DNA of 35,233 nucleotides, taken from the NCBI GenBank assembly GCA_002839355.1, contig PGXW01000033.1:1-35233 (forward strand), in the 5' to 3' direction. Under the pieces are notes generated by a model that saw only the letters and a program-made list of their open reading frames with translations, was not told the DNA's origin and did no database searches. Each line of letters begins with the position of its first letter. Position 1 is the first letter of the stretch. Source of the DNA: Spirochaetae bacterium HGW-Spirochaetae-2. GTDB lineage: Bacteria > Spirochaetota > Spirochaetia > Sphaerochaetales > Sphaerochaetaceae. The translations under genes were made by a program, and so were the position numbers. Below are positions 11,849-34,590 of this stretch, piece after piece.

Positions 11849-11868
11849 CCATGATTGGAAATACGGGA

Positions 11869-13152: not shown

Positions 13153-13190
13153 CTGAATTACTCCTTTGCAGTGGATACTTCAATGCCAAC

Positions 13191-13219
13191 ATTCTATCTG
13201 CACCCATGCAATTTGTACA
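13191..13219 (-). promoter_or_regulatory. Candidate promoter of the purine permease
   Basis: On the - strand TGTACA (13214-13219) and TAGAAT (13191-13196) are separated by 17 bp and match sigma-70 hexamers at four and five of six positions. The permease ATG is about 30 nt downstream of the expected start. The spacer holds TGCA repeats but not the TTGTTGC-N5-GTTGCAA motif of ygeW and ade. Confidence 0.45.
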
Positions 13220-13281
13220 GAAAAAAATGCGGTAAGTCACCCTTGAACGCTGCTTTTTTGCTCTTTTCCCAAACGAAGCGA

Positions 13282-14058
13282 TCAGTGTACCCGGGTGACC
13301 ATGAGACGGTCTCCGTGTCGGAAGGTTTCCATCGGAGTTCCGTAGAGCTCCGAGAGCAACGGGGGGGTGAGCGCATCCGTAGCCGGACCGCTGAACAACA
13401 GTTCGCTATGTGAAATCATGGCCACATGGTGCGCGCAGTCGGCGGCAACGGTAGGGTCGTGGGTGGTGAAGAACAGGGTGATACCTTGTTCCGAGAGTTG
13501 CCGCAGGATACGGATGACTTTCGCGGTGTTGCCCGGATCGAGACTGCTGGTAGGTTCGTCCAACAGCAAAACCCTCGGTTGTTGTGCCAACGCACGGGCG
13601 AGGAGGACCAACTGGTGTTCGCCTCCACTGAGTGTGGTAATGGGACGGTGGGCTATTTCCTGGATCCCCACCTGTGTGATCGCGGCCTGGGCGATCTCGA
13701 CATCCGCATGTGTCGGCGACGCCAACTCGTGCAGATAGGGGGAGCGGCCGAACAGCACATATTCCAACACGGTGAAGGAAAACCGCGCACCCTCCTCTTG
13801 GGGCACCAGGCTTACCGTACGTCCCAGACTACGTTTGGTATACGATGCGAGCGGTGCGTCGAACAGATGGATACAGCCATGGTCCGGTTTTCTCCACCGC
13901 AGCAATAGGTCCATGAGGGTTGATTTTCCAGCACCGTTCGGACCGAGCAGCACCGTGGTCCGGCCCTCGGGAATACACAGGTCCAAATTCGATACCGCTG
14001 GATTCTCACGCAAAGGATAGGTATAGGTGACCTGCTCGAGACGATAGGCACATTTCAT
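13282..14058 (-). CDS. FecE-type ABC transporter ATP-binding protein
   Basis: ATPase subunit of a FecBCD/BtuCD-type importer, 258 residues. Walker A is GPNGAGKST at 39-47, the Q-loop is in VPQEEG at about 85-90, the signature is LSGGEHQ at 143-149, Walker B is LLLDEP at 164-169 followed by the D-loop, and the switch histidine is H200 (TTHD). The frame runs open up to 14517, but that part lies inside the permease gene and has no ABC sequence. ATG 14058 overlaps the permease stop as ATGA and gives a normal N-terminus (MKCAYRLEQVTYTY), so it is chosen. Third gene of a binding protein, permease, ATPase operon. The FecE family transports siderophores, haem, cobalamin or molybdate; the substrate is not readable. 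Confidence 0.9.
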   Translation of the reverse strand: MKCAYRLEQVTYTYPLRENPAVSNLDLCIPEGRTTVLLGPNGAGKSTLMDLLLRWRKPDHGCIHLFDAPLASYTKRSLGRTVSLVPQEEGARFSFTVLEYVLFGRSPYLHELASPTHADVEIAQAAITQVGIQEIAHRPITTLSGGEHQLVLLARALAQQPRVLLLDEPTSSLDPGNTAKVIRILRQLSEQGITLFFTTHDPTVAADCAHHVAMISHSELLFSGPATDALTPPLLSELYGTPMETFRHGDRLMVTRVH

Positions 14059-15098
14059 AATTTTGCCTCCGTTTGCGGGCGAGTCAGTATGATGATGAAC
14101 AATACGGCTCCAATCAAGCTTGTCAACACGCCAAGGGGGATCTCGCTGGAAAGCAGTGTCCTGCCGACGGTATCGCAAGCGAGCAGGAACAAAGCTCCCA
14201 GCAACATGGAACCGGGAAGGGCGAATCGGGCATCGGCACCGAAAAGGCGGCGGGCGAGGTGGGGGATGATGAGTCCGACCCACCCGATCAGGCCTGCGAC
14301 GGAGATTATTGCCGTGGTCGCGATAGTTGCGACAAACAGGACCAGTGATTTTTCCCGGCTTACCGAGATACCGATCGCATGTGCGGTGCGCTCGTCGAGC
14401 GAAAGGAGGTTGATCCGCCAGCGTATGGCGAAAAGCACCACAAGGGCTGTCCACATGACCGGCATGACACTCCACGCCGTCTTCCATGTGCTGTTCCATA
14501 ATCCCCCCATCATCCAAAAGGTGATATCCTGCAAACTCGTGGTGGGGTCGGCTACCAGCTTAATGATGGAAAGTCCTGCTGAAAACATGGCTCCCACTGC
14601 TATTCCCGAGAGCACCAGGCGCAATATCCAGCCGCCGAATCGGAACCGTTTCGCCAACCAGTAGGACGTTGCCAATGCCAAAAGTCCGAATAGCGAGGCA
14701 CTTACCTGTACTGCGAGGGCTGAAAACCCAAAGAGGGTGATGGCTGCGGCAGCTCCGAACGCCGCACCTTGCGAGACACCGAGGAACCCCGGTTCGACCA
14801 ATGGATTGGCAAACAGCATCTGGAATACGAATCCTGCGGCTGCAAGGGAGGCTCCTCCCGTTATCGCAAGGAGGATACGTGGGAGCCTGACGTTCAGGAC
14901 AACCTTTGCGAACAGGGCATCCTCCAACAGGTGCAGGGGATTGGCAATTCCCGCACTGGGATACCGTCCGGTAAGCAATGCGACGGTTGCCAAGACAACG
15001 AGAAGCAAGGCGAAGGCCAGCAACCGGTACCGGTAGAGGGTGATGCGACTTGCATAGCGGTGTGTTTCTCCCGTTCCAGGTTTCTGTTTCATCGTCAT
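14055..15098 (-). CDS. FecCD-type ABC transporter permease
   Basis: Membrane subunit of the FecCD/BtuC family, 347 residues, with about ten hydrophobic segments. Family marks are RLPRILLAITGGASLAAAG near the N-terminus, NPLVEPGFLGVSQGAAFGA, and GLIGWVGLIIPHLARRLFG before the last helices, the region that contacts the ATPase. The frame is open to 15263, but that stretch lies inside the binding-protein gene. ATG 15098 (MTMKQKPGTG) overlaps the binding-protein stop as ATGA and is chosen; ATG 15092 is an alternative. ATGA overlaps at both ends show translational coupling with the binding protein and the ATPase. Confidence 0.9.
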   Translation of the reverse strand: MTMKQKPGTGETHRYASRITLYRYRLLAFALLLVVLATVALLTGRYPSAGIANPLHLLEDALFAKVVLNVRLPRILLAITGGASLAAAGFVFQMLFANPLVEPGFLGVSQGAAFGAAAAITLFGFSALAVQVSASLFGLLALATSYWLAKRFRFGGWILRLVLSGIAVGAMFSAGLSIIKLVADPTTSLQDITFWMMGGLWNSTWKTAWSVMPVMWTALVVLFAIRWRINLLSLDERTAHAIGISVSREKSLVLFVATIATTAIISVAGLIGWVGLIIPHLARRLFGADARFALPGSMLLGALFLLACDTVGRTLLSSEIPLGVLTSLIGAVLFIIILTRPQTEAKL

Positions 15099-16201
15099 CG
15101 GCTTACCGAAGAGCGGTACGCATGCACCAATGCCTCGAGTATCTCCTCGGATTCGAGGCCATAGAAATCGGTGTAGAACGAGCGGATCTCCGCTTCCATA
15201 TCGAAATCGGGAAACAGGTTCGGATGCAGTTCGGCGGCTAACCATTGCAAGGCCAATATCCACCGGCTATCCGACTGGAAGTAGTTCATGACATCGGCGG
15301 GAGTCGAGCCGATGGTTCCTGTCCGGGTCGCCGCCAGTTGTTGCCATTGGGGGCTCGCACCGATTGCCTGCAGGAACGCCGATGCAGGAGACTTGTAACT
15401 GATAAGGAACATGGTGCTGGGATTCCATGCGGCTATCTGTTCGAACGACACTTTTCGCCAGGAATTGGCGGCCAGATTCGCATCCATCCACACCGGACTG
15501 CCTCCTGCGCGGAGGGTGATGCTTGTCTGTATCCAATCCTTGGGAGAAACGCTGAACGCTGTCACGCCATCGGAGGCTGCGGCTTGCATCATCAATACAC
15601 TCGGACGTTGCGATTCGTCCAAGGTCGCAATAGCTGCATCGACCGCTTGTTCTCGTTCTTCGAACGCCTCGATTATGCGCCGTGGCGTTTCGGCATCATC
15701 CAACAGCCTTCCCAACTCGACAATTTCCGATTTCCAGGCTTGGGGAGTCTCCAGGTCCATGACGAATACGGGTATCCCGAACGGTTCCAATAGGGCGACC
15801 ACCGAATCGTAGTTGCTCGATTTGGTGAGCACGAGGTCGGGACCATGCGCTATGATCTCCTCCGCTCCGACTTGCTGCCCCAGGCGGCCGGTTATCTTGT
15901 ATTCGGGTCTGATCAGGTCGAAATAGTCGCCCAACCCCTGGTCCGTCTTGGCCAACACGATCTCCATGTTCTTCGCAGCGGGAAACAGGAACAAGGCATC
16001 GGCGGGCATCACCGCGGCCCTTCCCACCACCAGGACCCGTCCCAGATCTCCCGAGACAGTTACTTTCCGTCCCAGGGCGTCGATTGCCGTTCGGGTTTCG
16101 GGTGGTGTCGACGTCTCGATCGCACCCCGGGCAACAAGTGGCTGGGATACCAAAAACACACACATTAGGACCAGTAGGATCCTGGACAACTTCGGTTTCA
16201 T
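15095..16201 (-). CDS. Periplasmic metal/chelate-binding protein of the FecB/BtuF type
   Basis: Solute-binding protein of a FecBCD-type importer, 368 residues. The first 26 or so residues form a Sec signal peptide (basic MKPKLSR, then ILLVLMCVFLVS). The mature part follows the family pattern: VTVSGDLGRVLVVG, GAEEIIAHGPDLVLTKSSNYD, FGIPVFVMDLETPQAW, and a C-terminal lobe starting near SVLMMQAAASDG. No lipobox cysteine is seen at the cleavage site, so a soluble periplasmic form is likely. Start ATG 16201 has GAGGAG at 16209-16214. The substrate is unknown: iron chelate, cobalamin, haem and molybdate/tungstate (as in Haemophilus MolA) are all possible. Its closeness to Mo-hydroxylase genes favours molybdate weakly. 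Its upstream region contains a 160-bp foldback element. Confidence 0.82.
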   Translation of the reverse strand: MKPKLSRILLVLMCVFLVSQPLVARGAIETSTPPETRTAIDALGRKVTVSGDLGRVLVVGRAAVMPADALFLFPAAKNMEIVLAKTDQGLGDYFDLIRPEYKITGRLGQQVGAEEIIAHGPDLVLTKSSNYDSVVALLEPFGIPVFVMDLETPQAWKSEIVELGRLLDDAETPRRIIEAFEEREQAVDAAIATLDESQRPSVLMMQAAASDGVTAFSVSPKDWIQTSITLRAGGSPVWMDANLAANSWRKVSFEQIAAWNPSTMFLISYKSPASAFLQAIGASPQWQQLAATRTGTIGSTPADVMNYFQSDSRWILALQWLAAELHPNLFPDFDMEAEIRSFYTDFYGLESEEILEALVHAYRSSVSR

Positions 16202-16230
16202 GACAGACTCCTCGGATTGATGGGAAAATT

Positions 16231-16390
16231 AGTGTCCTGTAAACTGTAATCCTTTAATTTCCTTCGGTCTAAGCGGTGTGTGGCGGCGTTCGCGTCGAAT
16301 CAGATATGATAATATCTTCTTCTCCTTGGCCTAGCCACGCTCCGCTTTCACTCGAAGTCAATTGACAAGTATTAAGCTTTACAGGACACT
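16231..16390. repeat. 160-bp foldback element with 13-bp perfect terminal inverted repeats
   Basis: AGTGTCCTGTAAA (16231-16243) and TTTACAGGACACT (16378-16390) are perfect inverted repeats. Inside them a second pair, AAGCGGTGTGTGGC (16271-16284) and GCCACGCTCCGCTT (16334-16347), is complementary at 12 of 14 positions, and the segments between are partly complementary. The apex holds AGATAT-gata-ATATCT. The whole is one imperfect palindrome without an open frame. It looks like a MITE or an internally deleted IS that keeps both ends. No target duplication is visible in the flanks (GGGAAAATT left, TGCCGTTAG right). It lies between a candidate - strand -10 box and the binding-protein start, so a structured 5' leader is an alternative reading. 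Confidence 0.7.
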
Positions 16391-16419
16391 TGCCGTTAGT
16401 CTACCATTATATTTATAAA
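16390..16419 (+). promoter_or_regulatory. Candidate original promoter of proA, now upstream of the IS
   Basis: TTGCCG (16390-16395), an 18-bp spacer and TATAAA (16414-16419) match sigma-70 at four and five of six positions and point towards proA. The IS starts at 16477, about 50 bp beyond the expected start. If this was the proA promoter, the IS now sits in the proA leader. Confidence 0.45.
16406..16411 (-). promoter_or_regulatory. Candidate -10 box for the ABC importer operon
   Basis: TATAAT on the - strand is a perfect -10 match, but no good -35 hexamer stands 16-18 bp upstream. Transcription from here would start near 16399 and run through the 160-bp foldback element before reaching the binding-protein ATG at 16201. 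Confidence 0.35.
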
Positions 16420-16471
16420 AATACAACGGAAAGTTCAAGACAATCGGGTACAACCGACGCTATATCGGTAT

Positions 16472-16476
16472 CTACC
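16472..16476. repeat. Left copy of the IS target-site duplication (CTACC)
   Basis: CTACC directly abuts the left end of the IS and is repeated at 17889-17893 directly after the right end. A 5-bp direct repeat at both borders of inverted repeats is the mark of a transposition event. Confidence 0.7.
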
Positions 16477-17888
16477 CGTAATGCCTCATTAGAAAATCTA
16501 ACTTTAGGGAAGTTTCCTCAGAATCAAAAAACCTAACCCAAAGGGAATCGAATCCTTCATGCTGGGAGTGTGGAGGAACTGGGTATGGGGTTGACGATGG
16601 ACGAGAGGAAATCCTTGGTACGGGAGACCGCGAAGCGGTATCGGCAGGCAGGCAAGAGGCAGAAGGGCCTCATCCTTGACGAGTTTGTCCAGAGCACCGG
16701 CTACAACCGCAAGTACGCCATCCACATCCTTGCGAACGAGGGGAAGGTGAGCTGGTCCAAGGCGCCCGGACAAGTGGTGGGGGTGCGCATGAAGGCCACC
16801 TACCGGGGCGGGCGGCGGCAGAAGTCGGGCCGCAAGCGGGTGTACGGCGCGGAGGTGTGCGGCTCGGTCCTGAAGATATGGCGGCATTTCGACCACATGT
16901 GCTCCAAGCTGTTGAAGGAGTTCATCCGGGTGAACATCGACGACCTGTACCGCAGCAAATGGCTGCGCCTCGATGCGGCGCACCGGCAACCGCTGCTGGA
17001 TATCAGCGCCGCCACGATAGACCGGGCCGTGGCGGCGGAGCGCAGGCAGTACCGGCAGATGCGCGGGAGTTGCACAACCAGGGCGGGCAGCATGCTGCGC
17101 AACCAGATCCCCATCCGGGTCTACTTCGATTGGGACGAGCGGGCTCCCGGGTTTTTCGAGATGGACACGGTGAGCCATGACGGCGGGTTCGAGGCCAGGG
17201 AATGCTGCCACACGCTGACGATCACGGATGTGGGGGTGGGATGGATCGAGCTGGCCTCGGTGATGAACAACGCCTCCAGGTGGGTCGCCGAGCAGCTGGA
17301 GCGGATGAGGCGGACGGTCCCCTATCCGGTGCTCGGCCTGGACAGCGACAACGGCAGCGAGTTCATCAACCACCTGGTGTCAGCCTGGACGGAGGGCCAC
17401 GGGATCATGTTCACGCGTGGCAGGGCGTACCGGAAGAACGACAACTGCTTCGTCGAGCAGCAGAACTTCCACGCGGTGCGCAAGGTCGTCGGCTATGGGC
17501 GGTACGAGGGGCGGGAGGCCCACGAGGCGCTGGAAGAGGTCTACCGGCACCTGTGTCCCCTGCGCAACTACTTTTTTCCTTGCGTGCGCCTGGTTTCCAA
17601 GCAACGGATCGATGGGAAGACGAGGAAGGTCTACGATCCGCCGCAAACCCCGTACTCCCGGCTGATGCGGGACCCGCGGTTGAGCGACCAGCAGAAAGGC
17701 ATCATAGCGGCGCAAAGGGAAAAGTATGATATGATCGAGTTGAAGAGGGGCTTGGACCATGCGGTGAAGCGGCTGCTTGAGCTGCAGTACCGGTACCGGA
17801 GGACCTGAGGTGTCGGGCAACGGCTTGGGTTAGGTTTTGATTATGAGGATTTCTCCTTTTACGGTTAGATTAATATTGAGGCAATGCG
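16477..17888 (+). mobile_element. Complete 1412-bp insertion sequence with ~65-bp imperfect inverted repeats
   Basis: The element is bounded by imperfect terminal inverted repeats (left 16477-16541, right 17825-17888). The outermost 12 bases are CGTAATGCCTCA on the left and CGCATTGCCTCA on the right, read inwards. Further in, both ends share AATCTAAC, TCCTCA, AATC and AACCTAACCCAA. A 5-bp direct repeat, CTACC, flanks both ends (16472-16476 and 17889-17893). One transposase gene fills the inside, read in the same direction as proA. Size, single D,D(35)E gene and 5-bp duplication would fit the ISNCY/IS1202-like groups, but no family is assigned. The element appears intact. It lies between the ABC importer operon and proA. 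Confidence 0.85.
16585..17808 (+). CDS. IS transposase, rve-type D,D(35)E integrase core
   Basis: A 407-residue transposase. An N-terminal helix-turn-helix-like part (about 1-60, with TAKRYRQAGKRQKG and TGYNRKYAIHIL) should bind DNA ends. A basic linker with GGRRQKSGRKRVY follows. The retroviral-integrase-like core has D194 (EMDTVSHDGG), D255 (DSDNGSEF) and E291 (CFVEQQN), giving the D,D(35)E spacing. After the core come a Tyr/Phe-rich segment (PLRNYFFPCVRLV) and a basic tail. A GTG at 16570 keeps the frame open, but ATG 16585 has GGAGG at 16572-16576 with 8-nt spacing and is chosen. The catalytic triad is complete, so the protein may be active. Codon use is visibly richer in GCG/CGG than in the flanking genes, which fits acquisition from elsewhere. 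Confidence 0.9.
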   Translation: MGLTMDERKSLVRETAKRYRQAGKRQKGLILDEFVQSTGYNRKYAIHILANEGKVSWSKAPGQVVGVRMKATYRGGRRQKSGRKRVYGAEVCGSVLKIWRHFDHMCSKLLKEFIRVNIDDLYRSKWLRLDAAHRQPLLDISAATIDRAVAAERRQYRQMRGSCTTRAGSMLRNQIPIRVYFDWDERAPGFFEMDTVSHDGGFEARECCHTLTITDVGVGWIELASVMNNASRWVAEQLERMRRTVPYPVLGLDSDNGSEFINHLVSAWTEGHGIMFTRGRAYRKNDNCFVEQQNFHAVRKVVGYGRYEGREAHEALEEVYRHLCPLRNYFFPCVRLVSKQRIDGKTRKVYDPPQTPYSRLMRDPRLSDQQKGIIAAQREKYDMIELKRGLDHAVKRLLELQYRYRRT

Positions 17889-17893
17889 CTACC
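17889..17893. repeat. Right copy of the IS target-site duplication (CTACC)
   Basis: Second copy of the 5-bp direct repeat found at 16472-16476. It abuts the outer end of the right inverted repeat. Removing the IS and one copy joins TATCTACC to TTGCATCACC. Confidence 0.7.
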
Positions 17894-17922
17894 TTGCATC
17901 ACCACCAAATTCAGAGTAATCT
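17894..17922 (+). promoter_or_regulatory. Weak candidate promoter for proA beside the IS end
   Basis: TTGCAT (17894-17899), 17 bp and TAATCT (17917-17922) could form a promoter, but the -10 matches consensus at only three of six positions. The rest of the 83 bp between the IS and proA shows no better site. Confidence 0.25.
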
Positions 17923-17971
17923 GTGACCAATCGTACGTTAAGCGAGGCCCGTTTTGGAAGACCGTGGAATC

Positions 17972-19273
17972 ATGGAACAGCTCACGCGAGTACCTGCGCA
18001 CCAGCGGGTGTTGGGCGCGTTGGCATCGAAGGACAGGAATGGCATGTTGCTGGCTATGGCGACTGCCTTGGAACAGCATGCACAGCGGCTTTTCGCCGCC
18101 AATAGGAAAGATATCGCAGCTGCGGACCAGGCTGCTCTCGCCACCCCATTGCGCAAGCGGCTGGTGTTTGACGAGAAGAAGTTGGCCGGTGTGTGTGACG
18201 GGATCCGACAGGTCGCATCGTTGCGTGACCCCATTGGACGGATCCGGGAACGCCGGTTGCTGGATGACCAATTGCTTCTGGAACGTGTGGATGTTCCCAT
18301 CGGTGTGATTGGTATGGTATTCGAGTCGAGACCCGACGCCTTGGTCCAGATCATCTCCCTTTGCCTGAAAAGTGGAAATGCGATCATCCTCAAGGGGGGA
18401 CGGGAGGCTTTGAACACCAACAGGGAGTTGGTTGCGGTTATCGGGGAATCGCTGCAGCCCTTTGCCGCGGGAAGCGCCTGGATAGTCCACTTGGAGAGTC
18501 GCGAGGACGTGAGGTTCCTGCTGGAACTCGATGATATCGTGGATCTGCTCATCCCCCGTGGCTCGAATGAATTCGTCCGCTATATCATGGACAATACCAA
18601 GATACCGGTATTGGGTCATGCCGATGGAATTTGCGCGTTGTATGTGGATTCCGAGGCTCCGATCGATCTCGCCGTCACGGTCGCCGTCGACTCCAAGTGC
18701 CAGTATCCGGCAGTGTGCAATGCGGTCGAGACAGTACTTGTCCATGCTGCGGTCGCTCCCACCTTCCTTCCCCGGTTCAAGGAAGCGCTCGCACCATGGT
18801 CGGTGATCATCCACGGCGATCGTAGGGTCGGTGCGATTATCGAGTGTATCGAGGCTGTCGAAGACGATTGGGATACCGAATATCTCGGGTACGAGATCGC
18901 CATCCGTATCGTCGACTCGCTTCAGGAGGCTATGGACCATATCGCCGCACATGGCTCGGGACATACCGATTGCATTGTCACCTCCCACGAGGCGAATGCC
19001 CGCAAGTTCATGCGCGAGGTCGATTCGGCCGATGTGTTCTGGAATTGCAGCACCCGTTTCGCAGACGGTTTCAGGTATGGCCTGGGTGCCGAGGTAGGTG
19101 TCAGCACCCAGAAGATCCACGCTCGTGGCCCGGTTGGGCTCGATGGTCTGGTTATAGGAAAATGGTTGCTTTCGGGCAATGGCCATATTGTCGATACCTA
19201 CGAGAAGGGGCGGGCCTTCAAACATGAGGAGTTGCCCCTCGAAGGTGTCGGGCTGCTCGGGGAGGTAGAATGA
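17972..19273 (+). CDS. proA: Gamma-glutamyl phosphate reductase
   Basis: ProA reduces L-glutamyl 5-phosphate with NADPH to glutamate semialdehyde, the second step of proline synthesis. The 433 residues match the family (about 415-435). The catalytic cysteine is C249 in YPAVCNAVET. Other marks are FESRPDA, IILKGGREA, NTKIPVLGHADGICALYVD and GPVGLDGL. The frame stays open to a TTG at 17954, which has GAGG at 17944-17947. ATG 17972 gives the usual N-terminus (MEQLTRVPAHQRVL) but only a weak GTGGA signal, so TTG 17954 remains possible. The stop overlaps proB by ATGA. An IS ends 83 bp upstream and may have cut the gene off from its promoter. Confidence 0.93.
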   Translation: MEQLTRVPAHQRVLGALASKDRNGMLLAMATALEQHAQRLFAANRKDIAAADQAALATPLRKRLVFDEKKLAGVCDGIRQVASLRDPIGRIRERRLLDDQLLLERVDVPIGVIGMVFESRPDALVQIISLCLKSGNAIILKGGREALNTNRELVAVIGESLQPFAAGSAWIVHLESREDVRFLLELDDIVDLLIPRGSNEFVRYIMDNTKIPVLGHADGICALYVDSEAPIDLAVTVAVDSKCQYPAVCNAVETVLVHAAVAPTFLPRFKEALAPWSVIIHGDRRVGAIIECIEAVEDDWDTEYLGYEIAIRIVDSLQEAMDHIAAHGSGHTDCIVTSHEANARKFMREVDSADVFWNCSTRFADGFRYGLGAEVGVSTQKIHARGPVGLDGLVIGKWLLSGNGHIVDTYEKGRAFKHEELPLEGVGLLGEVE

Positions 19274-20382
19274 TGGACCGCGATTTTTCTTCCGTGAAGA
19301 GAATCGTGGTGAAAGTAGGTACCAACCTGCTTTCGGACCATCAGGGAATTGATTCGCATCGGATCGAGAAGGTAGTCGCGGATATCGTGGCGTTGAGGCA
19401 GCAGGGATTGCAGGTTCTGTTGGTCTCTTCAGGTGCGATCGGACTCGGTGCGAAGGAATTGGGCAGGTCGACGGCGGTCAAGCGGACCGCCTTGCGCCAA
19501 GCCTGTGCCTCGATCGGTCAACCGATACTCATGAGCCACTATCGTGCGGCCTTCAAGCGGCATGGGGTCGTTTGTTCGCAGGTGTTGATTACCCGGAGCG
19601 AATTGAACGACCGCAAGACCTATGTGAACTTGAAGAACTCGGTGCAGACGCTGTTGGATCTTGGGGTGGTTCCGATTTTCAATGAGAACGATGTGGTCAG
19701 TACGGCCGAAATCGGTACCGCGATCGGGGACAATGACCGGATGAGCGCATTCGTTGCAAGCAAGGTCGATGCGGACCTGCTCGTGATCCTCTCGGATATC
19801 GCGGGACTGTACACCAAGGATCCCCGCAAGGATGCCGATGCCGAACTCCTTTCGGATATACCGAAAGTCGACGACAAGATATTCTCGTATGCCGGCAGTG
19901 CGGGCAGTGTGTTCTCGACCGGTGGGATGAAGACAAAACTGGTTGCGGCGAGAATCGCCGCCACCGCCGGTTGCGCGACGGTGATAGCAAGCGGTTATGA
20001 GCCGGATATCCTCTGCCGGATACATCGGGGTGAACCTATCGGCAGCCATATCCATGCGGACAAGCGAATGGGCCAACGGTTCCGTTGGATACTCAACAGC
20101 AATCCGACCGGGACCATCTGGATAGATGAAGGTGCACTCAAGGCACTCCGTTCCCATAAAAGCCTGTTGCCTTCGGGAGTTGTCAAGGTCGACGGCATTT
20201 TCCAGGCCGGGGACGTGGTCATGGTCAACAATATTGCCAAGGCTGTTCCGTATTACAATAGTTCGGAGATATTGGAGATGGCCGGGTGTCAGAGCAAGGA
20301 CATGCCCCGTCGTCTGGGCAAGGGAAAGGCGGATGTGCTGTTCCGACCAGAGGATATTGTGTTTTTGGATTATGCAGACTAA
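19270..20382 (+). CDS. proB: Glutamate 5-kinase with PUA domain
   Basis: ProB phosphorylates glutamate, the first and usually proline-inhibited step of proline synthesis. The 370 residues contain an amino-acid-kinase domain (VVKVGTNLLS near 13-22, VSSGAIGLG near 54-62, FNENDVVST and GDNDRMSAFVA near 140-160, GGMKTKL near 217) and a C-terminal PUA domain from about 280. Length matches long-form ProB. ATG 19270 overlaps the proA stop as ATGA, with GGGGAGG at 19259-19265; the next codon is also ATG (19273) with better spacing, so the protein may begin one residue later. The order proA-proB is the reverse of the common proBA order. The 3' end overlaps the next gene by 11 nt. Confidence 0.94.
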   Translation: MMDRDFSSVKRIVVKVGTNLLSDHQGIDSHRIEKVVADIVALRQQGLQVLLVSSGAIGLGAKELGRSTAVKRTALRQACASIGQPILMSHYRAAFKRHGVVCSQVLITRSELNDRKTYVNLKNSVQTLLDLGVVPIFNENDVVSTAEIGTAIGDNDRMSAFVASKVDADLLVILSDIAGLYTKDPRKDADAELLSDIPKVDDKIFSYAGSAGSVFSTGGMKTKLVAARIAATAGCATVIASGYEPDILCRIHRGEPIGSHIHADKRMGQRFRWILNSNPTGTIWIDEGALKALRSHKSLLPSGVVKVDGIFQAGDVVMVNNIAKAVPYYNSSEILEMAGCQSKDMPRRLGKGKADVLFRPEDIVFLDYAD

Positions 20383-21283
20383 TTATCATATATTCCACAG
20401 GAAACAGGACATCGGCAAGCGGATCAGCCTGCTGCACCGCGAGGAGACCATGTCGATCGGATTGATGGCAGTCGATGCCGGGGAGTCCCTGGCCGGTGCG
20501 ATCGAGGCGATCCTCCAGTATTCCTCCTGGTCCGTGCATGTGTTGATGCATGAGGAGCAGGGGAGGATTCCTGAATTGCGCTCCCGTTTTCCACAAGCGA
20601 CGTTCATCGTGTTCGCCCAAAGCGTTCCCTTCGGGACCATGGCCAATGCCATGGCCAACGAATGCTACACCACCTTCTTCTTCCTTACCAGAAGCGATCT
20701 GCGTTGCAGCCGGTTCGATTCGGAGGAGGCGATAGCGCTTCTGCATAGGAGCGACAAACCTGCCGCAATCACCCCCGTCCTGTCGAACAGGCTCGGTGAG
20801 CTTATTCCGGTGATCCAAGCTCCGATGCTCAGGGATGGCATGGTCGATCCAGTCTCTTTCTTGCCAGGCAGTGCCATCTTGCCCACCCTCTATCCATTTT
20901 TGGGTATGGGGTTGTATGAGCGGGCACTGTTCCAGCGTCTGCGGGGTTTCGATGAAGCGGTTGAGAGCGAATACTGGCAAGTGCTCGATTTCGGGCTGCG
21001 CGCCTGGTTGTACGGATATCCGATCCTCAACTCCCCCTGCATCTCGTGTACATTCCTCAACCGCCAGTTCATCATCGAGGACCGGTCCGAGCGGGACGGA
21101 ATCAAACGCGTCCACACCAAAGCTCTCGGGGTCAGGCAAATGAACGGGAAGAACTATCCGAAACGTCCGGGCAAGTATTCCGATGCCCATGTGCATGCCG
21201 AGGTGAAGAAACGGTTGGCGCTGTACAAGACCGATTTCCAGCAACTGGTGGAACAGTGGAAGGCTCCTGGAGATACCCTATGA
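20372..21283 (+). CDS. Putative GT-A/GT2-like glycosyltransferase relative, function unknown
   Basis: A 303-residue protein that is not confidently recognised. The layout recalls family-2 glycosyltransferases: an N-terminal beta strand MSIGLMAVDAGESLAGAIEAIL, a segment rich in FFFLTRSDL where the DXD region would be, and RGFDEAVESEYWQVLDFGLRAWLYGYPI, which resembles the GFDE...EDVDLCLR...G motif of GT2 enzymes. A clear DXD triad is missing, so activity is uncertain. No signal peptide or membrane segment is seen. ATG 20372 overlaps proB by 11 nt but has no good ribosome site; ATG 20450 has GAGGAG only 3 nt upstream and is an alternative start, giving 277 residues. It overlaps the amidase gene by ATGA, so a cell-envelope role is plausible by context. 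Confidence 0.6.
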   Translation: MQTNYHIFHRKQDIGKRISLLHREETMSIGLMAVDAGESLAGAIEAILQYSSWSVHVLMHEEQGRIPELRSRFPQATFIVFAQSVPFGTMANAMANECYTTFFFLTRSDLRCSRFDSEEAIALLHRSDKPAAITPVLSNRLGELIPVIQAPMLRDGMVDPVSFLPGSAILPTLYPFLGMGLYERALFQRLRGFDEAVESEYWQVLDFGLRAWLYGYPILNSPCISCTFLNRQFIIEDRSERDGIKRVHTKALGVRQMNGKNYPKRPGKYSDAHVHAEVKKRLALYKTDFQQLVEQWKAPGDTL

Positions 21284-22056
21284 GTGGTAGAGCACCCGTC
21301 ATTGCCCTCTGTATGGTGGCCATCCTGGTCGGCAGCTCCCTCTATGGTACCGTATCGAAGGTTTCCCCATTTTCATTGCCGATAGGAACGGTCGTGCTCG
21401 ATGCCGGGCATGGTGGGCACGATCCCGGTGCGACGGCCTCTTGGCAGTGGGATGAGCCGGTCTATCTGCAGGAAAAGGCAATCACCTTGGATCTGGTCCG
21501 AAGGACTTCCGATATCCTCCGTACCGCCCGTGCGGATATCGATGTTGTATTGACCCGCGATTCCGACACCTATATGGCCTTGCAGGATCGTGCCGATGTG
21601 GCGGCAAAATTGAATCCCGGAGTTGGGAAATCGATCGTATTCGTTTCGGTCCATGCGAACTCCTCACCGTCGGAAGAACCGTCCGGGTTCGAGGTCCTGG
21701 TGAAGCAAACCGACAAGCGCCTTCGTTTTCTCGATGCACAAGTTCCCGATTGGGCGATAGCGCGGTTCGCGAACCAGACGGCAAGCGAGTTGAACCGGTT
21801 GTTGAACCGTGAGAACCTGTTGTTCGCCACCGCAATGCGGGAGCAGATGGCCAAAAGTTTTCCCCAGGCACGTGACCGGGGAGTCAAGGAACAGGATGTC
21901 TGGGTACTCAATGCCAGCAAGGTGCCTTCCGTGTTGGTGGAGGTCGGTTTTATCAGCAATAGCGACGATGCCTATCTGATGACCCAACAGACATGGCTTG
22001 ACCGGATGGCGAACACGCTGGCCGCGGGAATCCTGGCATACATCAATCCCTATTGA
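21280..22056 (+). CDS. N-acetylmuramoyl-L-alanine amidase (Amidase_3 type)
   Basis: A zinc amidase that cleaves the bond between N-acetylmuramic acid and L-alanine in peptidoglycan, 258 residues. A signal peptide covers about residues 1-23 (VIALCMVAILVGSSLYG), so it acts outside the inner membrane. Zinc and catalytic residues are H44 (DAGHGGHDPG), E65, H125 (SVHANS) and E221 (VLVEVGFISN). There is no visible AMIN or LysM domain, so it is a minimal AmiA/AmiC-type enzyme. ATG 21280 overlaps the preceding stop as ATGA; the frame continues upstream to 21046 within the neighbouring gene and is not used. Its last 14 nt overlap the end of pncB on the opposite strand. Confidence 0.9.
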   Translation: MSGRAPVIALCMVAILVGSSLYGTVSKVSPFSLPIGTVVLDAGHGGHDPGATASWQWDEPVYLQEKAITLDLVRRTSDILRTARADIDVVLTRDSDTYMALQDRADVAAKLNPGVGKSIVFVSVHANSSPSEEPSGFEVLVKQTDKRLRFLDAQVPDWAIARFANQTASELNRLLNRENLLFATAMREQMAKSFPQARDRGVKEQDVWVLNASKVPSVLVEVGFISNSDDAYLMTQQTWLDRMANTLAAGILAYINPY

Positions 22057-23491
22057 GCTTGCTTCTTCCTTCGATTGCCAACTGGGTCTTCAGCGTCTTC
22101 AATTCCTTGGACAACGAGACCTTGTAGAAGTGTGGGTTTATCATACGCTTATAGCTGCCGTGGAAGGTCGCCAGGCTTTCCTTGACATGCCGTTGTATAT
22201 GCACCAGTTTCGGTGCATTCGCGATTCTCGTTCCATCGGTCATGACAAGACGGAGTAGAGGCGCGACCGAAGCATAACGCGATTGCTTGAGCGTGAAGTA
22301 ATCGGCTTCGTTGAACGGGTGGTAGAGGATGATATCCGATTTCGTGGTGATCTCTTCATGGTCCAGTGCTATCAGGTCTCCCAAGGAGGATCCCTCCGAA
22401 TCGACAAAGCGCCAGACTTGCTTGCGTCCGGGATTGGTGGCCTTCTCAAAACTGTTGCTGATCTTCATGGTCGGCAACCATGTGCCGTCGGACAGTTGCC
22501 GGGCTGCCAGCTTGTAGACGCCATTGAGAGAACTTTGCGATCCTCCGGTCACCAGATGGGTGCCGATTCCCCACGAGTCGATCGGGACGGCATCGTGCAC
22601 CAACGTCTCGATAATCTCTTCGGTCAGGTCGTTCGAAACGTATATCCGGCAACCCTCCAGTCCCGCGCGATCAAGCTTCTTCCTGATTTCCCGGGACAGG
22701 TAGCTCAAGTCTCCGCTGTCTATGCGGACACCGATCTGCTTCCCTTTCGCTTGCATCTCCTTACCCACGACAATCGCATTCTCGATACCGGAACCGAGCG
22801 TATCGTACGTATCGATCAGCAGCACGGAGTTGTCCGGGTAGATATCTGCGAAAGCCCTGAAGGAATCGAGTTCGGACTCGAAGGACATGACCCAGGAATG
22901 GGCCATGGTTCCTGCGACCGGAATGCCGAATATCTTGCCGGCGAGCGTGTTGCTGGTCGCGGCGCACCCCCCGATGAAAGCTGCACGGGAAGCGGAGATC
23001 GCACCGTCGGGACCCTGTGCCCGGCGCAGACCGAATTCCATGATCTGCCCACCTCCGGTAGCCTGGTACATGCGCGAGGCCTTGGTCGCGATCAGCGATT
23101 GGTAGTTGATCGTATTCAAGAGCATCCCCTCGATCAACTGGGCCTCCATCATGGTGGCCTCGACACGAATCAAGGGTTCTCCGGGAAATGCCACCGTTCC
23201 CTCGGCCATGGCATGGATTGTCCCGGCGAAACGGAAATCGGTTAGGTACGATAGGAACGCTTCATCGAACTTGTGCAATGAGCGCAGGTAATCGATATCC
23301 CCTTTGCTGAACGAGAAGAGTTCTATGCGCTTGAGCAGATCGTTGAGGCCGGCGAAGACCACATAGCCACCATTGAACGGGTTTGTCCGGTAGAACATGT
23401 CGAATACCACACGGGGGTTGTTCCTGGTGAGGAAATACCCCTGCATCATGGTCAGTTCATAGAAATCGGTGGAAAGGGCAGATACGGTCAT
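22043..23491 (-). CDS. pncB: Nicotinate phosphoribosyltransferase
   Basis: PncB joins nicotinate to PRPP, with ATP, to give nicotinate mononucleotide for NAD salvage. The 482 residues match the longer bacterial type. Family marks are TDFYELTMMQGY near the start, FGLRRAQGPDGAISASRAAFIGG, the GTMAHSWVMSF motif around 220-230 at the active site, and IDTYDTLGSG and IRIDSGDL-like segments. The frame is open to 23635, but ATG 23491 has a strong AAGGAGG at 23497-23503 with 5-nt spacing and is chosen. It lies 16 nt after serS in a seven-gene series of housekeeping genes. The 3' end converges on the amidase gene with a 14-nt coding overlap and no terminator hairpin between them. Confidence 0.93.
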   Translation of the reverse strand: MTVSALSTDFYELTMMQGYFLTRNNPRVVFDMFYRTNPFNGGYVVFAGLNDLLKRIELFSFSKGDIDYLRSLHKFDEAFLSYLTDFRFAGTIHAMAEGTVAFPGEPLIRVEATMMEAQLIEGMLLNTINYQSLIATKASRMYQATGGGQIMEFGLRRAQGPDGAISASRAAFIGGCAATSNTLAGKIFGIPVAGTMAHSWVMSFESELDSFRAFADIYPDNSVLLIDTYDTLGSGIENAIVVGKEMQAKGKQIGVRIDSGDLSYLSREIRKKLDRAGLEGCRIYVSNDLTEEIIETLVHDAVPIDSWGIGTHLVTGGSQSSLNGVYKLAARQLSDGTWLPTMKISNSFEKATNPGRKQVWRFVDSEGSSLGDLIALDHEEITTKSDIILYHPFNEADYFTLKQSRYASVAPLLRLVMTDGTRIANAPKLVHIQRHVKESLATFHGSYKRMINPHFYKVSLSKELKTLKTQLAIEGRSKLNRD

Positions 23492-23507
23492 ATCGACCTC
23501 CTTGGTG

Positions 23508-24782
23508 TTATCGGCGGATCTCCGAGAGGCCCATGTACGGTACCAGTGCCTTCGGCAAACCCACCGAACCGTCTTTCCGTTGGAAATTCTCAAGAATAGC
23601 GACGATAGCCCGTGATATGGCAATAGCAGTTCCATTCAACAGGTGGACGTGTTGGATCTGTCCCGCCGAATCCTTGTATCGGATATTCAACCTGCGTGCC
23701 TGGTAGTCGGTGCAGTTGCTGGTGCTCGTCACTTCACCATATTCGCCTTGTTCTCCGCGGCCCGGCATCCACGCCTCGATATCGAACTTCCTGTATGCGG
23801 GAGCGCCAAGGTCTCCGGTACAGGTGTCCACGACATGGTAGGGGATCTCGAGGCCTTGGAATATCTCTTCCTCGATCGCCAGCAACTGGTCGTGTATCTG
23901 TTCCGACTGGGTCGGCAGGCAATAGATGAACATTTCAACCTTCGAGAACTGGTGGACACGGTACAACCCCTTGGAATACTGTCCCGCCCCTCCCGCTTCC
24001 CTGCGGAAACAGTGCGAGAGCCCCGCCATGCGGATGGGCAAGTCGTTCTCTGACAGTATCTTGCCGGCATGGTAGCCGCCCAGGGTGATCTCTGCGGTTC
24101 CCACCAGGCATGTACCGGTTCCCTCTATGGTGTAGATGTTGCTCTCCTCGCCACGGGGGTTGAATCCGATACCTTCCAGGACTTCCTCGCGTGCGATATC
24201 GGGGGTAATGGTGAGGGTGAACCCATGTTTGCGCAGGATGTCGAGGGCATACCGCTCCAATGCCAACTCGAGCAATACTGCTTCGTTCTTCAAATAGTAG
24301 AACTTCGGGCCCGAGACACGTGTGGCGGTGTCGAAGTCGATCAAGTCCAATGTCTCGCCCAATTGGACATGGTCCTTAGGTGCGAAGGGGAATCGGGTTG
24401 GCTCTCCCCACTTCCGAATCTCCAGGTTCTCCGTATCGAGGCTACCGACAGGTGCCTGCGGATGGGCATAGTTCGGAATGGTCTTCGCAAGGGTAAGGTA
24501 ATTGGATTCGATTTCGCCCAAGGTCGATTCCTTGGTCGCGATCTCCTCTTTCAGGGCTTTGCCTTCGGCGATGAGTGCCGAGCGGGCATCGGCATCCAGT
24601 TTTCCCTTCATCTTGGACGCATTCTCGTTCCTGCGCGAACGGAGTGCCTCGGTCTCCTGCAACAAAACCGAACGCTGTTCCTGCAACGCTATGATAGCGT
24701 CGATATCCACATGCATGCCCCTGTTGGCGATATTCGCTGCGATCTCATCCCGTCTGGTTTTCAGCTCTTTCAGATCTATCAT
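23508..24782 (-). CDS. serS: Seryl-tRNA synthetase
   Basis: SerS charges tRNA-Ser with serine, 424 residues, the standard bacterial length. The N-terminal 100 or so residues form the coiled-coil tRNA-binding arm (MIDLKELKTRRDEI and a long charged stretch). The class II core follows: LVGTAEITLGG, motif 2 in FRREAGGAGQYSKGLYRVHQF, and motif 3 with LNGTAIAISRAIVAILENFQ. The TSTSNCTDYQARR segment contacts serine and ATP in this family. ATG 24782 has GGGGAAA just upstream. It lies 19 nt after proC and 16 nt before pncB. Confidence 0.96.
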   Translation of the reverse strand: MIDLKELKTRRDEIAANIANRGMHVDIDAIIALQEQRSVLLQETEALRSRRNENASKMKGKLDADARSALIAEGKALKEEIATKESTLGEIESNYLTLAKTIPNYAHPQAPVGSLDTENLEIRKWGEPTRFPFAPKDHVQLGETLDLIDFDTATRVSGPKFYYLKNEAVLLELALERYALDILRKHGFTLTITPDIAREEVLEGIGFNPRGEESNIYTIEGTGTCLVGTAEITLGGYHAGKILSENDLPIRMAGLSHCFRREAGGAGQYSKGLYRVHQFSKVEMFIYCLPTQSEQIHDQLLAIEEEIFQGLEIPYHVVDTCTGDLGAPAYRKFDIEAWMPGRGEQGEYGEVTSTSNCTDYQARRLNIRYKDSAGQIQHVHLLNGTAIAISRAIVAILENFQRKDGSVGLPKALVPYMGLSEIRR

Positions 24783-24801
24783 ATGTTTCCCCGTTGGTAT
24801 T

Positions 24802-25602
24802 TCAATTGCCTGTCTTGGCTTTCAGTTCCAATTCCAATGCCTTCTGGCTTGCCGCTTCAACCGATTCCATGAGAATGCCCATGAATCCATTCTCATACAG
24901 TACCTGCATCGTCTCGATTGTCAGGCCGCCTGGAGAACACACCTGTGTCAGCAATTCCTCGGGATGCTTCTTCGATTCCCGGACAAGGGAGGTGGCACTC
25001 TCCACCGTATCCCGTATGAGAGCGAGCGCGGTGGTATACGGCAATCCTTCATGGACCCCACCCATCGCAATGCCGTGCAGAAAGGAGAACGTGGTGGCGA
25101 TCGCGGATCCGGATACCCCGATAAAGGCCGCGAAATGCTTCTCGTCAATCCTATGGGCCGCACCGAACAGGTTGGCGAATTCCATGGTGGTGTCTATCAG
25201 GGTCTTGTCGGCATTCGGATGAGGGGTGACGGCTGTGACCGCCTTTTTCACCGAGGCCGCGATATTCGGCATGATCCGCACCACTTGCTCCGTGTGCAGT
25301 TGGGCAGCCAGGGTTTCGAGCGAGATGCCCGCAGCCATGGATATCCACTGCTTGCCGGCGTGTTTACGCAAGGTGGCATACAGGTCGGGAAGTATCTGGG
25401 GTTTCACCGCAAGCACCACGATATCGGAGGTTTTCAACAACTCGTCCAGGGGAGCGTATTCGGCACCGGTTTCACTGGCCAAGGCCCGGGCGGTTTCTTC
25501 CAATACATCATGGACCAATACTTGCCACTTCTTCGCGGGAGCGACACTGCGGATAATCGCTCCACCCATGTTTCCGCATCCGATAAACCCCATTGTCTTC
25601 AT
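24802..25602 (-). CDS. proC: Pyrroline-5-carboxylate reductase
   Basis: ProC reduces pyrroline-5-carboxylate to proline, the last step after ProB and ProA, which lie on the other strand in this window. The 266 residues fit the family. The Rossmann motif is GFIGCGNMGGAI at 5-16. VLAVKPQ near 70 and GVSGSAIATTFSFLHG and VCSPGGLTIE further on are typical. The frame is open to 25722 inside trmL, but ATG 25602 has AAGGAG at 25609-25614 and is chosen; this ribosome site overlaps the trmL stop codon. The 10-nt gap to trmL and 19-nt gap to serS suggest one transcript. Confidence 0.95.
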   Translation of the reverse strand: MKTMGFIGCGNMGGAIIRSVAPAKKWQVLVHDVLEETARALASETGAEYAPLDELLKTSDIVVLAVKPQILPDLYATLRKHAGKQWISMAAGISLETLAAQLHTEQVVRIMPNIAASVKKAVTAVTPHPNADKTLIDTTMEFANLFGAAHRIDEKHFAAFIGVSGSAIATTFSFLHGIAMGGVHEGLPYTTALALIRDTVESATSLVRESKKHPEELLTQVCSPGGLTIETMQVLYENGFMGILMESVEAASQKALELELKAKTGN

Positions 25603-25612
25603 GTGATACTCC

Positions 25613-26128
25613 TTATTGTGCCTGGGTTGCCGATGGCCAGACGAGGCGATGCAAGTCGCCTTCGGCCGAAAGGCCCGAGAACTGTTGTTGCCGTTCGAAC
25701 TCATATGCACCCACAGCGACACTGTTGGATAGATTCAATGACCGGGCTTCGTGCCGCATGGGAATTCGGATGCATCGGGAAGGGTATTCGACCAGAATCG
25801 ATTCGTCGATGCCTGCCGATTCCCTGCCGAAGACCAGGTATGCCGTATCGCCATAGGTGACGTCGGCATAGGTGTGTTTGGCTTTGGTGGTGAAGAACCA
25901 CAACGGAGCGTCGGTATGGGCATCGAGGAATGCGGCGATGCTGTCATGATGGCGTATGTCCAGCATGTGCCAATAATCGAGCCCGGCCCGTTTCAGCTGC
26001 CTGTCCGTGATGGTGAATCCGAGGGGGTGGACGAGATGCAGGGTTGCCCCCAATGCAGCACATGTGCGGGCGATATTGCCGGTATTCTGAGGAATTTCGG
26101 GTTCGAAAAGTACAATGTGCAGCCCCAT
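25613..26128 (-). CDS. trmL: tRNA (cytidine/uridine-2'-O)-methyltransferase, TrmL/SpoU type
   Basis: A small SPOUT (knotted) methyltransferase that 2'-O-methylates the wobble nucleotide of tRNA-Leu species in E. coli. The 171 residues match TrmL (about 155-170). Motif 1 is FEPEIPQNTGNIARTC near 8-23, motif 2 is LVFGRESAGI, and motif 3 is IPMRHEARSLNLSNSVAVGAYE. The frame is open upstream to 26191, but ATG 26128 gives the family N-terminus MGLHIVLFEPE, with GGAGG about 10 nt upstream, and is chosen. The 85 nt separating it from dinB hold a GC-rich repeat (CCCC-TTGCA-GGGG) without a T-tract and no convincing promoter. Confidence 0.92.
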   Translation of the reverse strand: MGLHIVLFEPEIPQNTGNIARTCAALGATLHLVHPLGFTITDRQLKRAGLDYWHMLDIRHHDSIAAFLDAHTDAPLWFFTTKAKHTYADVTYGDTAYLVFGRESAGIDESILVEYPSRCIRIPMRHEARSLNLSNSVAVGAYEFERQQQFSGLSAEGDLHRLVWPSATQAQ

Positions 26129-26213
26129 GGTGGAACATCCTCCCCACATTTGATCACTCGGTACTTTAGCACCATTGGGCACCCCCTGCAAGGGGAGTAG
26201 GGGATTTGGAATG

Positions 26214-27392
26214 CTACTGTTGCCCCGGTTCGTGCGTATCGAGGAGGCTGGCCTTCTGCAACGCCCGGCCTTTCGAGCGCAAGGTCAGGATCGTCCTCTC
26301 CAAGTCGCGTTTCCGCTTGAAGGGATTGTCGAACAACTCCTGCTGCTGTGGGGCGGTACTTGTCGAGGACACGTTGTGCAACCCGACACCGAGCAGGCGA
26401 ACCGGTTGGAACGGTTTCCACCGGTCATGCAACAGTTCCTTGGCCAACGAGTAGACCTGCTCCGCCGAATAGATCGGTTTGTTGGGAGTCGTCTGGGCAC
26501 TAATAGTGGAAAAATCGCTGAAACGCAGTTTGATTGCGACAGTTGGAGCGGTCACCTGCTCCTCGATAGCCCGGAACATGACCTCATGGCTCATTCCAAG
26601 CAGGTTCTGCTCGAGGATATCGACATCGGTTATATCGACAGGAAAGGTCATTTCGGTGCTGATCGAACGCGATTTTGTGACTCCTGTGTGTATTCCCGGG
26701 TCGATGCCATGGCTTACCTTGTGCAAGTACGATCCGGCCGCCTCCCCAAACAGCCGTTGGAGATGTTCCACCGAATATTCCCGCAGTTGGGCGACAGTCG
26801 TAATCGAATGTTTCGCCAAGGCAGAGAGTGTGCTGTCTCCGATTCCCCAGAGCTTGCGCAGGCCGACCGCATCGACAAAGGCAATCTCCTTGCCTGGGGA
26901 GACCCGGCATAGTCCATCGGGCTTGTCGAAGTCGCTTGCCATTTTCGCGATGAAACGGGTCGGTCCGATTCCCACACTGATCACCAGGGCCGTCTCATTC
27001 CTCACGCGGTTCTTCAACAGGATCGCCGCTTGGCGGGGTTTCCCGAATAGACGTTCGGTTCCCGTCATATCCAGGAATGCCTCATCAATGGAAATCTGTT
27101 GTACGACAGGGCTGAAACTCTGGAGAATGGCGACGATTTGTCGGCTCACCTCACTATACCGTTCCATGCGTCCGGGCACGAACTGTGCTTGCGGACAGAG
27201 CCGTTTCGCCTGATACATGGGCATTGCCGAATGGACGCCGAATACCCTCGCCTCATAGGAACAGGCAGAGACAACCCCACGGTTTCCCAGACCACCTACA
27301 ATCACCGGTTTTCCTTGGAATTCGGGATTGTCACGTTGTTCTACCGATGCGTAGAAGGCATCCATGTCGACGTGGAACCATACCGGTTGCAT
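26214..27392 (-). CDS. dinB: DNA polymerase IV, Y family
   Basis: Error-prone translesion polymerase, 392 residues. Catalytic carboxylates lie in VDMDAFYASVE near 8-18 and SIDEAFLDMT near 100-110. VGIGPTRFIAKMASDFDKPDG and WGIGDSTLSAL (helix-hairpin-helix) are typical of DinB. Near the C-terminus QQELF, followed by DNPFKRK, looks like a beta-clamp binding motif. ATG 27392 lies 3 nt after the ddl stop. No LexA-type operator was recognised nearby. Its place between cell-wall and tRNA genes suggests transcription with its neighbours and not as a separate damage-inducible unit; that is inference. Confidence 0.94.
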   Translation of the reverse strand: MQPVWFHVDMDAFYASVEQRDNPEFQGKPVIVGGLGNRGVVSACSYEARVFGVHSAMPMYQAKRLCPQAQFVPGRMERYSEVSRQIVAILQSFSPVVQQISIDEAFLDMTGTERLFGKPRQAAILLKNRVRNETALVISVGIGPTRFIAKMASDFDKPDGLCRVSPGKEIAFVDAVGLRKLWGIGDSTLSALAKHSITTVAQLREYSVEHLQRLFGEAAGSYLHKVSHGIDPGIHTGVTKSRSISTEMTFPVDITDVDILEQNLLGMSHEVMFRAIEEQVTAPTVAIKLRFSDFSTISAQTTPNKPIYSAEQVYSLAKELLHDRWKPFQPVRLLGVGLHNVSSTSTAPQQQELFDNPFKRKRDLERTILTLRSKGRALQKASLLDTHEPGQQ

Positions 27393-32872: not shown

Positions 32873-32901
32873 TTGACAATCTTTTCCTTGCTCACTATAG
32901 T
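32873..32901 (+). promoter_or_regulatory. Near-consensus sigma-70 promoter of the zinc-ribbon unit
   Basis: TTGACA (32873-32878, perfect), exactly 17 bp, and TATAGT (32896-32901, five of six). Transcription should start near 32908 and run to the terminator at 33098-33130, a transcript of roughly 220 nt. It is one of the best promoters in the window. Confidence 0.85.
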
Positions 32902-32937
32902 CATACCGTATCGATTTTCATTCGCAAGGAGAGGTTC

Positions 32938-33079
32938 ATGGCTAAAGCACATAGAGGAGCCGGGAGATTGTCCGGTTTGTAAAAGGACTGCGATCAAGGT
33001 TATGTACGAGCAATCGCTTGACGGAGCCAAGACAATGGTTTGTAAGCAGTGTAACGCGGCTCTCAAGCACGCAAAATAA
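32938..33079 (+). CDS. Small CxxC-x20-CxxC zinc-ribbon protein with an apparent +1 frameshift
   Basis: Strong initiation signals (AAGGAGAGG at 32926-32934, ATG 32938) begin a frame that reads MAKAHRGAGRLSGL and stops at 32982. Shifted by +1, another frame gives CPVCKRTAIKVMYEQ and ends MVCKQCNAALKHAK at 33079. Its four cysteines form CxxC-x20-CxxC, a typical zinc ribbon. That second frame has no start codon with a ribosome site before its first cysteine. Joining the frames anywhere between about 32941 and 32968 gives a basic protein of 46-47 residues. Possible explanations are a programmed +1 shift, a real inactivating indel or a sequence error. Strong promoter and terminator make a decayed gene less expected. 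Function unknown; nucleic-acid binding is likely for a basic zinc ribbon. Confidence 0.6.
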
Positions 33080-33097
33080 CAACATATACACGCTTGA

Positions 33098-33130
33098 AAG
33101 AGACTGTCATTCCAAGGCAGTCTTTTTTTT
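33098..33130 (+). terminator. Strong rho-independent terminator between the zinc-ribbon gene and murC
   Basis: AGACTGTC (33101-33108) pairs with GGCAGTCT (33116-33123) around a 7-nt loop, followed by an uninterrupted T-run to 33130. The murC ribosome site starts only 7 nt later, so murC has no room for its own promoter here and may depend on read-through. Confidence 0.9.
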
Positions 33131-33147
33131 AGCCAGCGGAGAGGTTC

Positions 33148-34590
33148 ATGGGTTTTTTCACCCGGTTGCGGGGTAAAGAGATATTCCTTGTCGGCATCAA
33201 GGGCACCGGAATGGCGTCCCTCGCGTGCCTGCTCTCGCAATTCGGTGCCCATATCCACGGGTCCGATGTTCCTGAACAATTCTCCACCGATGTGGTCCTC
33301 GCCGCGGCAGGTATCGGGTGGGTCGCGACCTTTTCAGCCGATGCGTTGCCAAGCGATACCGATTTGGTCATCCATTCGGCAGCCTATGATACCACCGGTT
33401 GTCCACAGCTGGCACGTGCGGTCGGTTTGGGGTTGCCGGTCTACAGTTATCCCGCTTTCTTGTCGGAGATCAGCAAAAACGTCGGCACATTCGGTGTGGC
33501 GGGAACCCACGGCAAGACGACCACTTCGGGATGCCTCGACTGGATTCTCCGAAAAACGGGATTGCCATACTTCGCGATCTACGGATCCCGAATCCAAGGC
33601 GAGCCGATCGGTCGCATGCCGAATGGAGACGAGATCGCAATCCTCGAATCCTGCGAGTATCGGGACCATTTCCTGACATATCGGTTCCGGGGAGTCCTGA
33701 TCACAACTATCGAGCATGATCACCCCGACTGGTTTGCCGACGTGCGACAGACACTCGATTCCTTCAAACACCTGGTCATGGGCCTACCGCAGGACGCCTT
33801 CGTCGTGTGCGGGATCGATTCCGAGTATTCCCGTAACCTGGCAAGTTGGATACGGACGGCCCGACCGAAATTGTCGTTTACAACCTTCGGCACAAATCCT
33901 TCGAGCATGTTCAGGATTTCCAGCCATGAGGATGGTCCACAGGAAAGCTCCTATTCCTTGGAGCCCTTGGATGGCCATTTCCACTGTCGGTTGGCTTCGG
34001 TTCCCCTCTGTCTCGATATCGTCGGAGCGGCGATTTTCGGCGCGTCACTTGTTTTGCGTGAAATGGGGCTTCCCGTCGATATGGAAACATTGGCCTCCGA
34101 TCCCGTATTGCCTGCACTACTTGGTGAGGCCTCCACCTTTCCCGGTTGCGCAGGACGTCTGGAGACGATCCTGCAGGAACGTGGTGTGGTGTACGTCGAC
34201 GACTATGCGCATCATCCGACGGAAATTTCCACATCGTTCGCGAGCCTGCGTGCCACCTATCCCGAACGCCGGCTGGTTACCATCTTCTTTCCCCATACGG
34301 TGTCACGCACCCGAACTTTTTTCGATGGATTCGCGGATGCGTTGCGACAATCCGATGTGTTGGTTGTCCGACCGGTGTACGCTTCGGCGCGGCATGACGG
34401 GAATATGGAAGATGGGCAAGCCATAGCCGGTGAACTTGCCGCTGCCGCTGGTGGTCGGCTTTATGGAGACGAGGAGACCTTGGTATCGGATGTCGCCAAG
34501 TTGTTGCGTCCGGGGGATGTCTGCATTACGATGGGAGCAGGAAACAATAGCGGTTTGGCGAGACGGATCGCCGACGTGAGAAGGAGTTGA
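33148..34590 (+). CDS. murC: UDP-N-acetylmuramate--L-alanine ligase
   Basis: MurC adds L-alanine to UDP-MurNAc, the first stem-peptide step, 480 residues. The N-terminal Rossmann-type domain starts with FLVGIKGTGMASLACLL and GSD; the P-loop is GTHGKTTT at 119-126. ESCEYRDHFL, TTIEHDHPDWF, VYVDDYAHHPTEI and TMGAGNN near the end are MurC/Mpl marks. Mpl, which recycles tripeptide, is the main alternative; length and the CEYR segment favour MurC. GGAGAGG at 33138-33144 precedes ATG 33148. The 14-nt initiation region is identical to that of the zinc-ribbon gene (32928-32941). A terminator sits immediately upstream. It ends 2 nt before yicC. Confidence 0.87.
   Translation: MGFFTRLRGKEIFLVGIKGTGMASLACLLSQFGAHIHGSDVPEQFSTDVVLAAAGIGWVATFSADALPSDTDLVIHSAAYDTTGCPQLARAVGLGLPVYSYPAFLSEISKNVGTFGVAGTHGKTTTSGCLDWILRKTGLPYFAIYGSRIQGEPIGRMPNGDEIAILESCEYRDHFLTYRFRGVLITTIEHDHPDWFADVRQTLDSFKHLVMGLPQDAFVVCGIDSEYSRNLASWIRTARPKLSFTTFGTNPSSMFRISSHEDGPQESSYSLEPLDGHFHCRLASVPLCLDIVGAAIFGASLVLREMGLPVDMETLASDPVLPALLGEASTFPGCAGRLETILQERGVVYVDDYAHHPTEISTSFASLRATYPERRLVTIFFPHTVSRTRTFFDGFADALRQSDVLVVRPVYASARHDGNMEDGQAIAGELAAAAGGRLYGDEETLVSDVAKLLRPGDVCITMGAGNNSGLARRIADVRRS

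Follow-up and report, generated by a model that had tools for sequence, protein, structure and literature searches.

Several ribosomal zinc-ribbon proteins are known to occur in cysteine-plus and cysteine-minus forms, and bL28 is a small ribosomal protein with both cysteine-containing and cysteine-free forms. In Borrelia, the ribosomal protein bL38 (BB0162, PDB 8FMW) is small (about 55 residues), basic and was long unannotated (PMC10618245). In Treponema pallidum, where TP0213 is L17 and TP0216 is DnaK, TP0214 was described as an uncharacterised 7-kDa protein with the highest NSAF value of the proteome (PMC5015957). Its top abundance was repeated in PMC9200625, whereas a later T. pallidum proteome did not find TP0214 highly abundant (PMC10600179).

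The window considered here is the whole stretch of DNA that was analysed (35,233 nucleotides, contig PGXW01000033.1 of Spirochaetae bacterium HGW-Spirochaetae-2). Close to its 3' end lies what is very probably a copy of a conserved Spirochaetia zinc-ribbon gene, disrupted by a 29-nt deletion, the intact product of which would be associated with the ribosome. The nearest relative, referred to as the sister species, was HGW-Spirochaetae-4 (G001). The features of the locus were as follows:

32873..32901 (+): sigma-70 type promoter, TTGACA-17-TATAGT, 11/12 consensus matches
32926..32934 (+): Shine-Dalgarno sequence, AAGGAGAGG
32938..32982 (+): remaining 5' part of the gene from its start ATG at 32938, encoding MAKAHRGAG, then RLSGL out of frame and a stop
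32963..32964 (+): junction of the 29-nt deletion relative to the sister species, with a 1-nt positional ambiguity
32964..33079 (+): zinc-ribbon part (CPVC...VCKQC), +1 relative to the ATG frame, 0 substitutions relative to the sister species
33096..33128 (+): intrinsic terminator, hairpin and U tract, -15.4 kcal/mol, z -3.6

Translation from the ATG gave MAKAHRGAGRLSGL (14 codons, stop at 32980-32982), and the four-cysteine ribbon frame (...EEPGDCPVCKRTAIKVMYEQSLDGAKTMVCKQCNAALKHAK) terminated at 33077-33079; within the transcript, no start codon was found for the ribbon frame 5' of its first cysteine. The terminator hairpin was called from its folding energy and was missed by the consensus scanner. 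An earlier note, made from the letters of the window, had described a near-perfect promoter, a strong ribosome site, an ATG frame that ends after 14 codons, a terminator and, in the +1 frame and without its own start, a four-cysteine ribbon; all of these were confirmed at the positions listed. The mini-gene unit is far above chance, since ribbon matches were obtained at a single locus in most related genomes (49/61, own genome counted). In the sister species, promoter, gene and terminator were all present and nearly invariant, with the same promoter; a TATAGTC-like element was also found upstream of many family members, and an AAGGAG-type ribosome site was common to most of them. The start region GGAGAGGTTCATGG of the small gene (32928-32941) occurred again at 33138-33151, at the start of the next gene, which encodes a Mpl-type Mur ligase.

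The gene is a member of an unnamed protein family, about 56 residues long, with the motif MxKAHRGxGIR...GRGxCPVCKRTxIKxLYE...VCKQC. A profile search of the class recovered it in 309/395 Spirochaetia genomes, and the relatives that bear names were all spirochaete metagenome-assembled genomes. Every distinct full-length member that was read (68/68) consisted of one uninterrupted frame: at the loci read, the frame 5' of the ribbon ran to a start codon, began with MAKAHRG, MSKAHRG or close variants, and placed about 20 residues between the start and the first cysteine. Among the matches listed from the class search, which were the higher-scoring ones (other broken copies may exist elsewhere), alignments ran from position 1-2 to 54-56 with no internal stops. 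Across the class the family differed as a protein does: residues were conserved, and synonymous sites were mostly free to change. Codons 3-6 were biased (AAA GCA CAT AGA) in divergent genomes, which perhaps keeps the start region unstructured. The window copy has the family N-terminus (MxKxHRGxG, as MAKAHRGAG from 32938) and the CPxC...VCKxC ribbon at a single locus per genome, but the ribbon is out of frame with the ATG, and the I(R)...GR segment that precedes the first cysteine is absent, having been deleted. Unlike its 68 relatives, it lacks one uninterrupted frame; judged from its sequence, it is a member gene that has been disrupted and not an intact member.

The size and place of the lesion were obtained from the sister species, whose DNA was identical to positions 32924-33164 of the window save for 29 extra bases at 32963/32964. 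Indels were compared base by base over the 7.9 kb at the 3' end of the window, which aligned at 88.9% identity over 7,879 columns with only four gaps (three of 1 base and one of 29 bases). Two of the single-base gaps lie inside a methyltransferase gene and cancel each other, the third precedes that gene, and the 29-base gap was the sole frame-breaking indel in the aligned columns. Positions 8000-27386 could also be located in the sister genome, which they matched at about 92% along most of the region. The region around 16230-17900 gave many scattered short matches in that genome, as a dispersed repeat would. The ribbon is in the +1 frame because 29 bases have been lost, and the lost residues (10 to about 19, IR...GRG, about ten) include I10 and R18, both invariant in an 18-sequence alignment. 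The earlier note had placed a possible indel at about 32941-32968, which was correct, and had named uninterrupted orthologues alongside an indel in this strain as the finding that would speak against its programmed shift; that is what was found, although the difference is of 29 bases and not one. Neither a second intact copy of the gene nor, with up to 3 mismatches allowed, the deleted 29-nt piece was found elsewhere in the genome assembly.

Taken together, the intact gene is single-copy, conserved and probably strongly expressed, and encodes a basic zinc-ribbon protein of about 56 residues. The deletion, after codon 8, takes out about ten residues (IR...GRG) and shifts the frame, and the sequence as written yields only the 14-residue peptide, with no zinc ribbon. 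The event appears either recent or an artefact of assembly or sample. The 116 bases 3' of the junction carry no substitution relative to the sister species, while neighbouring coding DNA differs by 10-13%; promoter, ribbon and terminator are undecayed although losing so conserved a gene should be costly, and the deletion is therefore very recent or not real.

It is given an even chance that this strain has truly and recently lost the 29 nt and that the gene is dead, the strain tolerating its loss or compensating for it. The junction is clean and is not explained by repeats, and the gene is naturally missing in some Spirochaetia lineages, Borrelia among them; such an event must be reconciled, however, with 116 nt of ribbon that have gained no substitution since, and with the lack of a second copy in the genome. 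That the gap is instead an assembly or consensus artefact, the gene of the organism itself being intact, falls somewhat short of an even chance. The assembly is a draft in 86 contigs, with contamination of 3.2%, and one of these contigs, ending 2.2 kb downstream of the locus, is the window itself. The whole unit is identical to that of the sister species, so that reads of mixed strains could tangle there, and loss of so conserved a gene is in itself unlikely. Against an artefact, homology at the junction amounts to only 1 nt and neither repeats nor homopolymers occur there, the missing piece is absent from the rest of the assembly, and the remainder of the 7.9 kb is clean. The earlier note had offered a programmed shift, a real indel or a sequence error: the latter two both stand, now as an indel of 29 nt, and the first is not supported.

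Programmed +1 frameshifting, in which the ATG frame would be joined to the zinc ribbon to regulate the product, is very improbable. In its favour, the two frames overlap, and no base of the downstream part differs from the sister species; but this conservation reflects an unshifted gene in the sister, none of the relatives read needs a shift, and the split frame is not kept among them. A fused product would lack the invariant I10 and R18, and with these residues deleted a +1 shift is unable to rebuild the protein of the family. In addition, a shift at the stop of the 0 frame would forfeit the first CxxC, and inspection by eye revealed none of the canonical +1 signals, for example CUU-UGA. With uninterrupted orthologues and invariant residues deleted, the programmed shift was not supported. 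Still less credible is a structured or regulatory RNA in place of an mRNA. In its favour, the 241-nt run identical to the sister species includes untranslated parts; however, the family varies as a protein, with its residues conserved and its synonymous sites largely free, and ribosomal-protein genes of the same genome pair have identical runs of 475 and 442 nt. The earlier note had also suggested an RNA acting by itself, but there is no need to invoke one: a protein gene as conserved as those of ribosomal proteins accounts for the conservation.

The disrupted-gene reading leaves the function of the intact family to be considered, and here genomic context points to the ribosome. In treponeme-type genomes the family gene directly follows rpoA-rplQ (both nearby at 23 loci), and in a treponeme-type genome of 1.14 Mb the order is rpoA, rplQ, family gene, grpE; in Sphaerochaetaceae-type relatives the gene adjoins the Mur-ligase gene, as in the window. 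Between the sister genomes, genes of the ribosomal operon were 96.5-100% identical (0-3.5% substitutions), ordinary genes near the locus were 87-90% identical (10-13% substitutions), and the small gene was 100% identical, the 29-nt gap aside; it thus behaves like a ribosomal-protein gene. Cysteine-minus members (L077:1018-1215, L091 and L092; CPVTG...VSKVG or ISKIG) were observed in three genomes of one genus, the 1.14-Mb genome among them, and have lost most zinc cysteines. Gene context, conservation, abundance and these cysteine-free variants suggest a ribosome-associated role for the intact family, in which the protein might bind rRNA through its basic N-terminal tail (MxKAHRGxGIR) and its zinc-ribbon body. 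The more specific proposal, that the intact TP0214-like family is an unrecognised Spirochaetia-specific ribosomal or ribosome-bound protein with zinc and zinc-free forms, and that this genome would be a natural deletion of it, is tentative, with a chance just under even.

Databases gave no name to the family: there was no model for it in Pfam or NCBIfam, where zinc-finger matches were sub-threshold only, and a sequence search of the PDB gave nothing significant. Structure prediction gave, with moderate confidence (mean pLDDT 77.9, pTM 0.53), a small zinc finger; a fold search with this model gave weak matches of treble-clef type (FYVE/GATA-type; best Z 4.0, rmsd 1.7, 44 residues), among which no ribosomal protein stood out. 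Identity with two known ribosomal proteins was rejected. For bL38, the Borrelia gene was located and its identity confirmed by a match to 8FMW; its hhalign probability with the family was 0.5%, and both families co-occur in the same genomes. For bL28, a separate gene is present in this genome and in most relatives, and the family gave no match to PF00830. In Borrelia genomes, the family was not found even at a loose threshold. Homologues of bL38 (BB0162) were themselves seen far beyond Borrelia, in 178/198 Spirochaetia genomes searched; the one in this genome (G000:C67:1890-2045, minus strand) lies outside the window.

The split gene was thus a correct observation with an ordinary cause, a deletion of 29 bases, real or artefactual, and more interest attaches to the family than to the split. 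A new recoding device was a false lead, now removed. Attention moves to a small family that has no Pfam or NCBIfam model and lies beside the treponeme ribosomal-protein operon, and whose probable member TP0214 was reported as the most abundant T. pallidum protein by one study and not by a later one. Should the family prove ribosomal, spirochaete ribosomes would have a component specific to this lineage.

Among described proteins, TP0214 probably belongs to the same family, by gene order and size: the homologue in the 1.14-Mb genome (MSKAHRGKGIR...GRGVCPV...) lies between rplQ and grpE, the place expected for TP0214, and its size fits. That protein is intact and has lost the ribbon cysteines, whereas the window copy has kept its cysteines in a broken gene; unlike the gene of the 1.14-Mb genome, the window copy is a solitary gene that has a promoter to itself and is followed by the Mur-ligase gene. 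The family resembles bL28 in being small and in having cysteine-containing and cysteine-free forms. Like bL38, it consists of small basic spirochaete proteins, and bL38 is an example of how such proteins of the ribosome continue to be discovered (PMC10618245).
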